Shown in pieces: positions 20,557 to 25,590 of a DNA stretch of 35,941 nucleotides. This stretch comes from an uncultured Erysipelotrichaceae bacterium (lineage in GTDB: Bacteria > Bacillota_I > Bacilli_A > RF39 > UBA660), in the NCBI GenBank assembly GCA_948439995.1, contig CAOJNP010000009.1:1-35941 (forward strand), given 5' to 3'. The notes under the pieces were generated by a model. It was not told the origin of the DNA. It saw only the letters and a program-made list of their open reading frames with translations, and did no database searches. The translations under genes and the position numbers were made by a program. The first letter of the stretch is position 1. Each line of letters begins with the position of its first letter.

Positions 20557-20583
20557 AAAAAAAGAATGTATTAGTTACATTCT
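20557..20583 (-). terminator. Intrinsic terminator of the acidic membrane protein gene
   Basis: The 7-bp stem GAATGTA/TACATTC (20576-20582 with 20564-20570), 5-nt loop and seven T on the minus strand. The stop codon (20575-20577) is inside the hairpin. Confidence 0.85.
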
Positions 20584-21444
20584 ATTTTCATCATGATAAA
20601 TTGGAATTTCATTTTCTAAACTTGGAAACATCATATTTGGTGTTTCTTGTTCAGTTTTTTGCATCACTTCTGGATTTAATTTTGGTAATTCAATCTTTTT
20701 TGGTAAATCCATTGGTGGATTTGAAGTATTTACAACATTCTCTTCTTCTGCTTTATTATTTACATAAACGGAGCTAAATTGTGTTGGATTTGGCATGGTA
20801 TTAATATCTGTTGTTTCTGTTATATTTACTGGATCTAAATTCATTTCAATTGTAGGTTCTGTTTGTTTTGGAGGATCATATAAATTCAGATTTGTATTAC
20901 TATTTTCTTTTTCTTCTTCCATTTTTGATGTTTCCATATTTTGATTTTTTATTTGATTTTGGATATCATCATAATGATTTGGCTCTGCTACAAAGGTATC
21001 TTCACTTAATCCAATGCTTTCTAATTCTTTTGAAATCGAAGCTGCTAATGCATCAAAATCAAAATCACTTTTTGGTGGAACTGGCACATTCTCTAATTCT
21101 TCTTCTGATGAAGGTTCTTCCATTACTGTAGATTCTTCATTCACTTCTGTTTCTTTTAAAGTGATTATATCACTCGCTTGTGTATTTAAAAAATCATTTG
21201 TTTTATTATTATTTGGAAGTTCTACATTGGTAATTGAATCATTAGTACCAAATGCTACCTCACTTTTTATATTTGTTTCATTCATATTCTCATTGTTTGT
21301 TTGTTCGTTTGCTATATTACGCTCTTTTTGATCTTTTTTTCCGAAGAATAAAATAATTAAAAACGCTAGCACTAAAATGGATACCGATGTAAATAAAATT
21401 ATTCCAAAATTTTCATTACTATATAAACTGGTTAAAAAATCCAT
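20575..21444 (-). CDS. Single-pass membrane protein with long acidic disordered tail
   Basis: Not recognised. From the ATG at 21444 (AAAGGTGGTG upstream) it is 289 aa: a short N-terminus, one transmembrane segment (about residues 14-35) ending in GKKDQKER, which by the positive-inside rule puts the tail in the cytoplasm, then about 250 residues of Asn/Glu/Pro/Thr-rich low-complexity sequence. A short possible helix (FDFDALAASISKELESIGL, about 127-145) is the only ordered-looking piece. The architecture resembles membrane-anchored scaffold or division proteins, but no family motif supports that. It lies between yneF and the AI-2E-family gene and has its own terminator. Confidence 0.75.
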   Translation of the reverse strand: MDFLTSLYSNENFGIILFTSVSILVLAFLIILFFGKKDQKERNIANEQTNNENMNETNIKSEVAFGTNDSITNVELPNNNKTNDFLNTQASDIITLKETEVNEESTVMEEPSSEEELENVPVPPKSDFDFDALAASISKELESIGLSEDTFVAEPNHYDDIQNQIKNQNMETSKMEEEKENSNTNLNLYDPPKQTEPTIEMNLDPVNITETTDINTMPNPTQFSSVYVNNKAEEENVVNTSNPPMDLPKKIELPKLNPEVMQKTEQETPNMMFPSLENEIPIYHDENRM

Positions 21445-21579
21445 TTTACTCACCACCTTTTATTCTATTGATAGAATATCATAAATACTTTTCAAAAGTC
21501 AATACTGATTGTCGACTTCTGTTTGTTTCATTAATTTTTATGTCATTTCAAGAAATTTATTCCTCAAAAAAAGAAATAA

Positions 21580-21843: not shown

Positions 21844-22260
21844 TTATATCATTATTTTATCTAACCAAAAATAATCTTTGTTTTTAAAATCGCAGAAAAA
21901 TAAATTATGTTCTTCTTCTAAGTCTTTCATAAAAGTAGGTCTTAAAACTGTACTTTCCATTTCTAAAAATGTTTTACAAACTTTTAAAACTGTTTTTTCA
22001 TGTCGATAAGCATCATGAATTTGATGAACATTACTATATTTTGTGTAAAAATAATTATCTTTATATTTTTTAAAAAGAGTAATATCCAATTGTTTTGGAT
22101 TAAATAAATCAACAATTCGTTCAAATAAATCTAATCCTAAATGAATATCACTTCGATCAACATAATATATTTGTTCTAAAGTTCTATAAAGGTGATATGG
22201 ATTTTTTTTCGTTAACATAGCATACTCATCCTTTATTTTAAAAATATAAAATTGTCTCAT
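21844..22260 (-). CDS. sirA: SirA-like protein (sporulation inhibitor of replication)
   Basis: In B. subtilis SirA binds DnaA domain I and blocks new replication rounds at sporulation onset. This 138-aa protein starts MRQFYIFKIKDEYA, comparable with YTYLIKEEFA of SirA, and ends FFCDFKNKDYFWLDKI, comparable with FLAMDFNSKRYGWL. It sits between yneF and the transketolase-family gene exactly as in B. subtilis. The ATG at 22260 follows GGGTGAAGGG; the frame opens with a GTG three codons earlier. Similarity is recognisable but modest, so the call rests on both sequence and synteny. Confidence 0.72.
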   Translation of the reverse strand: MRQFYIFKIKDEYAMLTKKNPYHLYRTLEQIYYVDRSDIHLGLDLFERIVDLFNPKQLDITLFKKYKDNYFYTKYSNVHQIHDAYRHEKTVLKVCKTFLEMESTVLRPTFMKDLEEEHNLFFCDFKNKDYFWLDKIMI

Positions 22261-22294
22261 ACCCTTCACCCAATTTTAGAGTATCACTATTTTC

Positions 22295-22334
22295 TTAAAA
22301 AAAATGTCGAAATTTATTTTAATAAATTTTCGAC
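22295..22334 (-). terminator. Intrinsic terminator of the transketolase-family gene
   Basis: A long stem (GTCGAAAATTTAT with ATAAATTTCGAC, one bulge; 22306-22334) is followed on the minus strand by a run of T (22297-22304). It covers the last six codons and the stop codon (22314-22316). Confidence 0.85.
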
Positions 22335-24293
22335 TTTAATTTTTAAAGATTCATAATCAAATCCCATTTTCTTTAATACTTCATTTGAATGGCCACTGTA
22401 ACCATAATCATTTAACCCAATAACCATTTCATTATTACTAGCAAAACGATTCCAAATAAGAGGATTGCTTGCTTCGATTACAATTCGTTTTATATTTTTT
22501 GGTAGAATAAGTTCTTCATACTCTTTTCCTTCACTTAAAAACAATTCCATGGAGGGCATTGACACAACTCGTAAATCCAAACCATTTTTTTCTAAGTCGT
22601 AAGCAATCTGTAATGTATATGGTAATTCACTTCCCGAACTGATTAAAATTCCATCCAATCGATTTTTTTCTTGTTTGATAATATAAGCTCCCTTTGAAAC
22701 CATTTTTGCATTGCTATTTGGTAGTTTTGGAGCATTATTTTGAGTAATGATTAATGCTGATGGAAGGTTTCTTTTTAGTATAGTTTCCCAAGAACCCATT
22801 ACTTCTAAAATGTCAGCTGGTCGATAAACTACTAAATTTGGAATGGTATGCAACATAGATAATTGTTCAATCGGTTCGGCAGCGGGTCCTTGCTCTCCTA
22901 CACTAATTGTGTCATGCGTAAAAATATAAGTAACTGGTATATTCATCAAAGAAGACATACGGATAGATGGTTTAATATAATCTGCATAAATCAATTTTGT
23001 ACTTCCAAACACTTTTAATCCAGTTACTGCCATCCCATTGATAATTGATCCCATTGCATGACTTCTTAATCCAAAATAAATATTTCGTATCCATTTATTT
23101 TTTTCTGATAATTCATTTTGTTTAATAAAAGTTTGACAAGTTGAAAAATGGTCTGTACTACCTCCTAAAAATAGATTACTTTGCGGAGCGATCATATTCA
23201 TTATTTTTTGATTTGTCTCAGTTAAAGGTTCACAATATCCATCATTAATTTTATAATGATCCGAATCAAATGAGAGATGAAGTTGTTTTTGGGATATAGA
23301 ATCTATGATTTCTTTCAATTTTAAGCTGGTACTACTATTGGAACGGTTATAAATTTCAATCCACTTTTTATATTTTTTTTCTGTTCTTTCTTGTATGTTT
23401 TTTTGCATGAATATCATACTGTCTTTAGAGATTTCAAAAGGTGGCAAGAATAAATTCCATTTTTTTCTTAAATTAGCTACATCAGTAGTTGCCAAAGGAT
23501 TATTATATGTTATATTTGTATTTTCATTAAAAGATTCTTTTCCAAGAGCTACTTTCATAATCAAAATGGATGGCTTTCCACTTTTTTTTGCATTCAGGAT
23601 TGCTTTATCAATTTCTTTTATATTGGTTCCATCTTTTAAATAATCAACATAAAAACCCATTGCTTGATATTTTTTTACCATATCTTCTTGTTTTACTATA
23701 TCAAGTGGTCCATCTTGGATCATATTGTTGTGGATATATAAAAAAATTAAATTGCTAATTTTTTTAGATGCAGCAAAAGATAATGATTCTTCTGCATTTC
23801 CTTTTATCATGTCACGGTCTGTACAAATACAATATGTGTCATAATCCAATAATTTGATACGATCATCTTCATTATCAATTATCGTTTGGCATATATTTCT
23901 TGCAAGCGCCATTCCTACTGCATTACCAATTCCTTCCCCAAATAATCCCGTTGAAATTTCAATACCTGGAGTTAAACCATATTCTGGATATCCAGGAGTA
24001 ATGGATCCAAGTGAGCAATAATTCATTAAATCTTCTTTGCGAATTGAATAACCACACAAATATAGCATTGCATAAAGTAGACTAGAAGCATTTCCAGAAG
24101 ATAAAACAACACGATCTCGATTGATCCAATTTGGCTCATTCGGTCGAACTATTAAATGTCTAGAAAATAAAGTGTATATGGTAGGTGCCATACTAAGAAC
24201 TAATCCTGGAGATCCACTTTTGGCTCTTGATATCATATCAATACTTAACATTTTTAATTCGTTTAAAGTTCTAATATCATCTTGATTCATCAT
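22314..24293 (-). CDS. Transketolase-family protein with degenerate active site (probable pseudoenzyme)
   Basis: Full-length transketolase architecture (659 aa; E. coli TktA is 663) in the place where B. subtilis has tkt. Most catalytic and cofactor residues are replaced. By alignment with TktA from memory: H26 to S28 (SGSPG), H66 to N68 (SSGNAS), H100 to Y102 (TPGYPE), GDG154-156 to T158-D159-R160, E160 to K164, H261 to Y263, the thiamine-activating E411 to S411 (GLRSHAM), D469 to Q468, H473 to A472 (GPAAEP) and R520 to Q518. Mg ligands D159 and N189, and THDT, remain. The frame is intact with normal codon use, a terminator and an extended -10 promoter, so it is expressed and selected. It is unlikely to be an ordinary transketolase; a structural or regulatory role is inference. 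Start could be either of two adjacent ATG codons. Confidence 0.88.
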   Translation of the reverse strand: MMNQDDIRTLNELKMLSIDMISRAKSGSPGLVLSMAPTIYTLFSRHLIVRPNEPNWINRDRVVLSSGNASSLLYAMLYLCGYSIRKEDLMNYCSLGSITPGYPEYGLTPGIEISTGLFGEGIGNAVGMALARNICQTIIDNEDDRIKLLDYDTYCICTDRDMIKGNAEESLSFAASKKISNLIFLYIHNNMIQDGPLDIVKQEDMVKKYQAMGFYVDYLKDGTNIKEIDKAILNAKKSGKPSILIMKVALGKESFNENTNITYNNPLATTDVANLRKKWNLFLPPFEISKDSMIFMQKNIQERTEKKYKKWIEIYNRSNSSTSLKLKEIIDSISQKQLHLSFDSDHYKINDGYCEPLTETNQKIMNMIAPQSNLFLGGSTDHFSTCQTFIKQNELSEKNKWIRNIYFGLRSHAMGSIINGMAVTGLKVFGSTKLIYADYIKPSIRMSSLMNIPVTYIFTHDTISVGEQGPAAEPIEQLSMLHTIPNLVVYRPADILEVMGSWETILKRNLPSALIITQNNAPKLPNSNAKMVSKGAYIIKQEKNRLDGILISSGSELPYTLQIAYDLEKNGLDLRVVSMPSMELFLSEGKEYEELILPKNIKRIVIEASNPLIWNRFASNNEMVIGLNDYGYSGHSNEVLKKMGFDYESLKIKVENLLK

Positions 24294-24317
24294 AACACCC
24301 TCTTATTATTTTGGTTT

Positions 24318-24328
24318 ATTATACCAAA
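24318..24328 (-). promoter_or_regulatory. Extended -10 promoter of the transketolase-family gene
   Basis: TGGTATAAT (-10 at 24318-24323) with an upstream TG; no good -35. It gives the gene a start independent of the SOS operon upstream. Confidence 0.5.
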
Positions 24329-24380: not shown

Positions 24381-24671
24381 TTAATTTAAAACTTTTTCGA
24401 ACGAAGAGTTGGATTTTAAGATATGAATTTCTAATTTTTCACATAAAGAGAGGAGTACGGAAAAAATACTAGAAATATCGAATTCTTGAGAGTATTTGTC
24501 TTCTTCATATAAATCATTTGCTAAATCTACTACTTTTTCAAACAGGCAAAAAATTTCTTCATTTAATAAATTATTATGGTATTTTTCTTTTACAATTTCT
24601 TTGACATAATTTTGAATCATTACCAAACTACTTTTTGCTTTTATTTTTTCAATTAATTCTTTTTTACACAT
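24381..24671 (-). CDS. Hypothetical helical protein, 96 aa, in LexA-controlled operon
   Basis: Not recognised. Almost wholly helical, Lys/Glu/Leu rich, with three cysteines and no membrane span. It starts 2 nt after the small membrane protein gene and uses the AAAGGAGG site contained in that gene's last codons, so the two are co-translated. By position it corresponds to yneB/ynzC in the B. subtilis SOS operon, but the sequence is neither a resolvase nor a YnzC protein. Confidence 0.7.
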   Translation of the reverse strand: MCKKELIEKIKAKSSLVMIQNYVKEIVKEKYHNNLLNEEIFCLFEKVVDLANDLYEEDKYSQEFDISSIFSVLLSLCEKLEIHILKSNSSFEKVLN

Positions 24672-24938: not shown

Positions 24939-24957
24939 TTGAATGGAGGAATGGAAA

Positions 24958-25590
24958 ATGATATTAGAAAGTGAAAAATCATTAACAAAAAAACAGTCTG
25001 AGGTATTGGATTACATCAAAAAATATACTGCAGAACATGGTTATCCCCCTGCCATTCGAGAAATTGGAGCAGGTCTTGGTCTTTCTAGTCCTGCTACCGT
25101 TCATACACATGTTAAAAAATTAGAAGAAGCTGGTGTTATTAAAACATCAAGTAATAAATTTAGAACAATTGAAATATTAGTAGAAAATGAATATGAAGAA
25201 ACAAAAGATGATGTAATAAAAGTTCCCCTACTTGGTAAAATTACGGCAGGAAATCCCATTGAAGCAATTGAAAGACCAAATGATTTTTTTGATTTACCTG
25301 CTGTATTAATTCCAAAGAAAGAAACTGTTTTCACATTAGAAGTCAGTGGTGAATCAATGATTAATGCCGGAATTTATGATGGCGATTATGTCATTGTTCA
25401 AAAACAAAATACTGCTAGAAATGGTGATATTGTTGTTGCAATGACTGAGGAAAATGAAGTAACTTTGAAAACCTTTTATAAAGAAGATGGGCATATACGC
25501 TTACAACCAGAAAATGATACCATGGCGCCTTTTATTTTTGAACACATAACCATTTTAGGAAAAGCAATTGGTTTATATCGAAAATTTTAA
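24958..25590 (+). CDS. lexA: LexA repressor
   Basis: SOS repressor that self-cleaves when RecA filaments form. From the ATG at 24958 (GGAGG eight nt upstream; an in-frame ATG at 24943 overlaps that site) it is 210 aa. The N-terminal winged helix includes GYPPAIREIGAGLGLSSPATVHTHV. The cleavage site is A97-G98 in KITAGNP, and the Ser-Lys dyad is S133 (SGESM) and K171 (VTLKTF). Two SOS boxes upstream predict autoregulation together with the divergent operon. Confidence 0.97.
   Translation: MILESEKSLTKKQSEVLDYIKKYTAEHGYPPAIREIGAGLGLSSPATVHTHVKKLEEAGVIKTSSNKFRTIEILVENEYEETKDDVIKVPLLGKITAGNPIEAIERPNDFFDLPAVLIPKKETVFTLEVSGESMINAGIYDGDYVIVQKQNTARNGDIVVAMTEENEVTLKTFYKEDGHIRLQPENDTMAPFIFEHITILGKAIGLYRKF

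Follow-up and report, generated by a model that had tools for sequence, protein, structure and literature searches.

The gene described here poses a simple question: why would a bacterium keep a full-length transketolase (TK) gene, in its ancestral place and with an intact reading frame, when nearly all of the active site has been replaced? The gene lies in the window, the whole stretch of 35,941 nucleotides that was analyzed. An earlier, sequence-only reading of this DNA had proposed a maintained pseudoenzyme or a repurposed fold, not decay. We have followed up that proposal by comparing the gene with its homologues across the family.

A transketolase by descent

The TK homologue (22314..24293, minus strand) is encoded in one uninterrupted frame as an intact protein of 659 amino acids. 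Pfam identifies the three TK domains, in order, on a single chain: Transketolase_N (263 bits), Transket_pyr (100 bits) and Transketolase_C_1 (100 bits). They correspond to a PP/TPP-binding module (residues ~8-335), a Pyr module (~362-522) and a C-terminal domain (~535-646). The closest solved structures are the full-length transketolases 8r3r and 4c7v (phmmer 1.4e-133); a structure prediction (AlphaFold) made from only two sequences reached a pLDDT of 31. The window locus also keeps the ancestral Bacillus order lexA-tkt-sirA. Domain order and orthologous position thus identify the protein as a TK by descent, and the length, domain order, Bacillus-like position and clean frame noticed in the sequence-only reading all hold.

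The marks of a functional TK are missing from the same protein. It scores 569 bits against the TIGR00232 equivalog model, under the model cut-off of 682, and it has neither the TPP/Mg motif GDG...N with the activating Glu411 nor the catalytic and substrate histidines H26, H66, H100, H261 and H473. It is the only TK of its genome (1.14 Mb, 90.6% complete): when PF00456, PF02779 and the TK homologue were used as queries, no second TK, split TK or DXS was found there, which answers the earlier suggestion that a second canonical tkt be looked for. A scan of other genome contigs yielded one relative, 80% identical at the locus and recorded as 'uncultured Tenericutes bacterium'; the family would belong to RF39, an order of gut Bacilli.

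Replacement of the active site

The roles of the active-site residues of E. coli TktA are established from TK structures. A multiple alignment with TktA (from NC_000913) places the replacements exactly where the sequence-only reading had put them: H26 is S28 in the window protein, H66 is N68, H100 is Y102, H261 is Y263, H473 is A472, E411 is S411 and R520 is Q518, while G154-D-G156 has become T158-D-R160 (TDR for GDG). Further changes that had escaped that reading are F434 to K433, F437 to Y436, L116 to F118, E160 to K164 and D469 to Q468. Misregistration, which would have left the residues present at shifted positions, is excluded, since the fixed anchors THD, RN..FG.R and GST flank the sites and six congeners agree.

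The losses are not equally informative. All 7 species of the genus are without H26, H66, H100, G156, H261 and H473 (one congener sequence ends before H26), and F434 to K and F437 to Y are common to all of them. The loss of Glu411 is real in the window species, which has Ser411, but occurs only there, the six congeners having kept Glu411; among the lost residues it is the least typical. G154 and R520 say little about loss, since S at 154 and K at 520 are frequent among canonical TKs of the family. The metal and diphosphate ligands D155 and N185 (here N189) are still present in the window species and vary among congeners (D/E/Q and N/T/S, respectively), and H461 and D381 are kept in the window protein and in most of the clade to which it belongs. 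Some weak cofactor binding may therefore persist in the window species, judging from D155, N185, D381 and H461.

Degenerate transketolases in the family

About 160 TK sequences of the family were read and scored for loss of 13 core residues. The distribution is bimodal: 126 entries have lost 0 or 1 residue, three have lost 2-3, and 33 have lost 5 or more. These are table entries, among them the E. coli reference and some fragments, and low scorers were oversampled, so the tally is not a frequency. Of the 33 high-loss entries one is a duplicate and three are TK-like proteins that have diverged very far; without these, 29 genomes are left. Very divergent proteins of this kind, about 580-650 amino acids long, are L050 (genome G033), L130 (G401), L131 (G144) and L132 (G263); L050 retains few of the canonical active-site residues and the other three almost none. 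They may be a further stage of degeneration, or a family of their own.

A maximum-likelihood tree of 61 rows requires at least 10 changes between the canonical and the degenerate state, all forced by well-supported branches. Most of these must be separate losses, because regain of a whole active site is unlikely. The genus of the window species forms, together with genera g103 and g168, one degenerate clade of 14 species (support 100/98), whose sister g12 is canonical. The homologues with shared substitutions that the sequence-only reading suggested looking for thus exist, 7 species strong in the genus and 14 in the clade. The active-site replacement dates from the common ancestor of the three genera, and divergence has continued since. 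Horizontal gain or origin as a paralogue is ruled out by the conservation of the locus and by the tree. Elsewhere the conversion is recent in places, since genera g8, g38, g4 and g137 each hold both canonical and degenerate TKs. No TK match at all was found in 100 of 386 family genomes, about a quarter, part of which reflects the incompleteness of metagenome-assembled genomes; any second role of TK is therefore not universal.

The independent degenerate lineages are not all alike. The TKs of g41 (L022, L135 and L136, from genomes G046, G218 and G312) became degenerate independently and keep H66, D155-G156, N185, H261 and E411, that is, the TPP/Mg ligands and the activating glutamate. Their changes are on the substrate side (H26Y, H100F, H461N, H473E and R520N), the pocket is better conserved than the remaining positions (identity 0.97 against 0.87), and the C-terminal domain evolves fast. 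From these residues the g41 protein looks like a candidate TPP enzyme with a new specificity, unlike the window's clade, where catalysis appears to have been lost. A TPP enzyme with a changed substrate is the better reading for g41, and the retention of D155 and N185 might be taken to extend it to the window species. We consider that extension improbable: G156, H100, F434 and, with one exception, H473 are gone from the 14-species clade, L116 is mostly gone, and congeners lose D155 or N185.

Selection and the location of constraint

Pairwise codon maximum likelihood, the kind of dN/dS comparison proposed in the sequence-only reading, very strongly rejects neutral evolution (omega=1). For the window species and its nearest congener dN is 0.105, dS is 3.3 and omega is 0.03 (2lnL 539), and every pair within the clade rejects omega=1 with 2lnL >285. 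Because dS is saturated, the estimates of omega cannot be relied on, but neutrality is rejected all the same. These results bear on slow decay, by which a TK no longer needed would simply not yet have acquired stop codons. Complete loss of TK is indeed common in the family, and relative to LexA the protein evolves faster than canonical TK. Yet at saturated dS the proteins of the genus remain 59-80% identical with no broken full-length frame, the codon models contradict decay, and the sole apparent stop (in L006) lies at a contig edge beside a truncated match. Decay is thus very improbable, the more so as the C-terminal domain has kept its canonical rate, as described below.

Constraint has been redistributed within the protein. 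The cofactor/substrate shell is the most conserved part of the canonical set, at an identity of 0.93 where the full-length value is 0.54; within the degenerate clade it falls below the protein average (0.35 against 0.53, P=0.001). Neighbouring LexA was used as a clock in three bins of divergence, with the proviso that LexA may change rate too. The LexA-normalised rate of the catalytic modules is 2.79 in the clade and 1.52 in canonical TK at LexA identity 0.7-0.8, and 3.08 and 2.01, then 4.16 and 1.50, in the other two bins, the last of which has no more than 5 canonical pairs and 9 from the clade. The TPP modules therefore evolve about twice as fast in the clade. For the C-terminal domain, which stays near the canonical rate, the corresponding values are 2.48 and 2.42, 2.87 and 2.89, and 3.32 and 2.84. 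When C-domain divergence is divided by that of the catalytic modules, the clade median is 0.87, lower than the value of 0.98 that marks the 1st percentile among 5400 canonical pairs; because pairs share sequences, this percentile is a description and not a p-value. Nearly all of 11 independent pseudo lineages have lost H26, H100 and H473, and G156 and L116 also go. Twelve structural residues that are invariant in canonical TK (R57, D58, R59, N404, R410, N419, G420, R446, D462, E477, R492 and D495) are kept in at least 10 of the 11. The window protein therefore shows what is expected of a pseudoenzyme, with catalytic residues lost, scaffold residues kept (the fold being judged from sequence only) and purifying selection maintained.

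The catalytic modules of the clade are also under purifying selection, and this could equally be explained by a new binding or catalytic site. The old pocket might bind another small molecule, or support TPP-independent catalysis, through residues such as Lys433, Asp381 and His460. F434 is replaced by K in 13 of 14 clade members and by Glu in one, and D381 and H461 are kept in most. The low conservation of the old pocket is the opposite of what a shared new site would produce, and K at 434 is the only new fixed pocket residue found. We regard a repurposed pocket as unlikely.

Promoter and neighbouring genes

An extended -10 promoter element, TGGTATAAT (24318..24326, minus strand), is read 25-33 bases before the start codon of the TK homologue; its function is predicted from its sequence. 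A Shine-Dalgarno-like sequence, AGAGGGTG, is found at 24296..24303 on the same strand. All 13 clade members whose upstream DNA could be read keep the form TG-N-TATA[A/C]T at a distance of about 25-50 bases from the start, although the intergenic sequence around it has diverged, and most have a recognisable ribosome-binding site after the element. Retention of the promoter across three genera is a further argument against decay.

The divergent neighbour of tkt is the LexA repressor gene used as the yardstick of rate (24943..25590, plus strand), assigned by Pfam and synteny. Downstream of tkt lies a gene for a SirA-like protein of 141 amino acids (21844..22269, minus strand), which matches the Pfam SirA model over its full length with E=0.002, below the cut-off. 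SirA is a sporulation inhibitor of replication. In most family members, canonical and degenerate, a few tens of bases separate tkt from the downstream sirA, a spacing that would suit a frame kept open merely so that transcription or translation can pass through tkt into sirA. Such coupling would not preserve amino acids over 659 codons, and the SirA model also matches in 13 of 17 TK-less genomes and, in clade member G284, on another contig. We find this account of the open frame scarcely credible; the SirA matches in TK-less genomes and on another contig also disfavour SirA as an obligate partner of TK. The SirA-like gene is kept in very small genomes with or without TK.

Three other genes of the window, all on the minus strand, deserve mention. 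Between lexA and tkt a gene for 96 amino acids (24381-24671) has no known family; it occurs in the window's genus and weakly elsewhere (L059). Downstream of sirA is a gene for a fast-evolving acidic protein of 293 amino acids (20575-21456), again of no family, with an apparent single N-terminal membrane helix. The gene at 18555-19142 matches deoxynucleotide monophosphate kinase (PF21448, E=9e-7), a family known mainly from phages, and is found here in a bacterial genome.

Phosphoketolase and pentose phosphate metabolism

Loss or inactivation of TK goes with phosphoketolase. This enzyme is encoded on another contig (C20) of the window genome and was found in 25 of 29 genomes with degenerate TK, in all 4 with very divergent TK-like proteins and in all 17 without TK, compared with 48 of 102 genomes with canonical TK. 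Grouped as 46 of 50 TK-dead or TK-less genomes against 48 of 102 canonical ones, the difference has a Fisher p of 1.9e-8, calculated with kinship ignored, with two borderline genomes left out and from a TK sample enriched for low scorers. The pentose pathway has not been dismantled: Rpe is present in 72 and RpiB in 71 of 74 family genomes. Transaldolase was found in none of the 74, canonical-TK genomes included, by a search that was positive in 10 of 14 control genomes. The non-oxidative pentose pathway must therefore run without transaldolase here, even where TK is canonical, and the absence of transaldolase is no sign of dismantling. Phosphoketolase, Rpe and RpiB together would dispose of pentose phosphates as glyceraldehyde-3-P and acetyl-P, so that TK catalysis probably became dispensable in this lineage. 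On the simplest ordering, phosphoketolase came first and freed the cell from its need for ketol transfer, after which TK either disappeared or became a pseudoenzyme.

A probable maintained pseudoenzyme

The reading that we favour, at a probability of a little under 60%, is that the gene is an ancestral tkt turned into a maintained pseudoenzyme, its catalysis dispensable after phosphoketolase and its product kept for a non-catalytic role. The proposal of a maintained pseudoenzyme or repurposed fold, not decay, is supported by homologues that share the losses, the lack of a second TK and the rejection of omega=1. TK activity has probably been lost, to judge from the residues replaced. The cofactor and substrate residues were replaced from the three-genus ancestor onward and then kept diverging. 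Purifying selection has continued to act strongly on the remainder of the protein, above all on its C-terminal domain. Replacement combined with retained constraint suggests that a second, catalysis-independent role keeps the gene, probably as a contact between the folded dimer and another protein. In TK the C-terminal domain takes no part in the TPP site; as it keeps the canonical rate, we infer that it is involved in this role. F434 normally packs on the TPP pyrimidine, and Lys at this position may form a salt bridge with Glu411 in the congeners, stabilising an empty pocket; the window species has Ser411.

A broader version is that TK in this family has a general catalysis-independent second role, largely C-terminal, that phosphoketolase frees the protein from catalysis, and that pseudo-TKs arose many separate times, as the state changes on the tree would imply. 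This we put forward tentatively, at somewhat less than even odds. TK is a textbook housekeeping enzyme, and a protein that is kept while its chemistry is repeatedly discarded amounts to a natural separation-of-function experiment, in which whatever stays conserved in pseudo-TK would mark the second function. The results also suggest a rule, that phosphoketolase precedes loss or inactivation of TK, and they call for caution: domain-based automated annotation would call such genomes TK-positive and assign the wrong pentose phosphate pathway to many uncultured gut bacteria.

Comparison with known systems

A literature search, with most subscription journals outside its coverage, turned up no earlier description of a pseudo-transketolase in bacteria, nor any of recurrent conversion or a link to phosphoketolase. 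The window protein resembles canonical TktA/Tkt (TIGR00232) in length, domain order and lexA-tkt-sirA locus, and is 45-49% identical to the canonical TKs found in sister genera, but differs in lacking the cofactor and substrate residues, in scoring below the TIGR00232 cut-off and in its faster TPP modules. Phosphoketolase (XFP, PF09364) is a distantly related TPP enzyme that uses the same substrate, xylulose-5-P, and is present in the window genome; it is, however, a separate gene product of ~800 amino acids that presumably replaces TK function and is not the window protein. The split-chain transketolase (PDB 6yak/6yaj) shares the TK modules and was matched in the sequence search, but its two chains are described as transketolase components, whereas the window protein is a single chain whose active-site residues are lost. 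Pseudoenzymes are themselves a known category; the closest parallel is human TKTL1, a debated TK case. TKT-delta38 folds but shows no specific TPP binding and no activity (PMC3485151), while a modelling paper disagrees for TKTL1 itself (PMC6334435). TKTL1 is expressed, and like the protein described here it is a TK homologue that has been kept after losing part of its active site. TKTL1, however, coexists as an additional paralogue with an active TKT and has lost a block of 38 residues, whereas here the only TK of a bacterial genome has been converted, by point substitutions, at full length and repeatedly.
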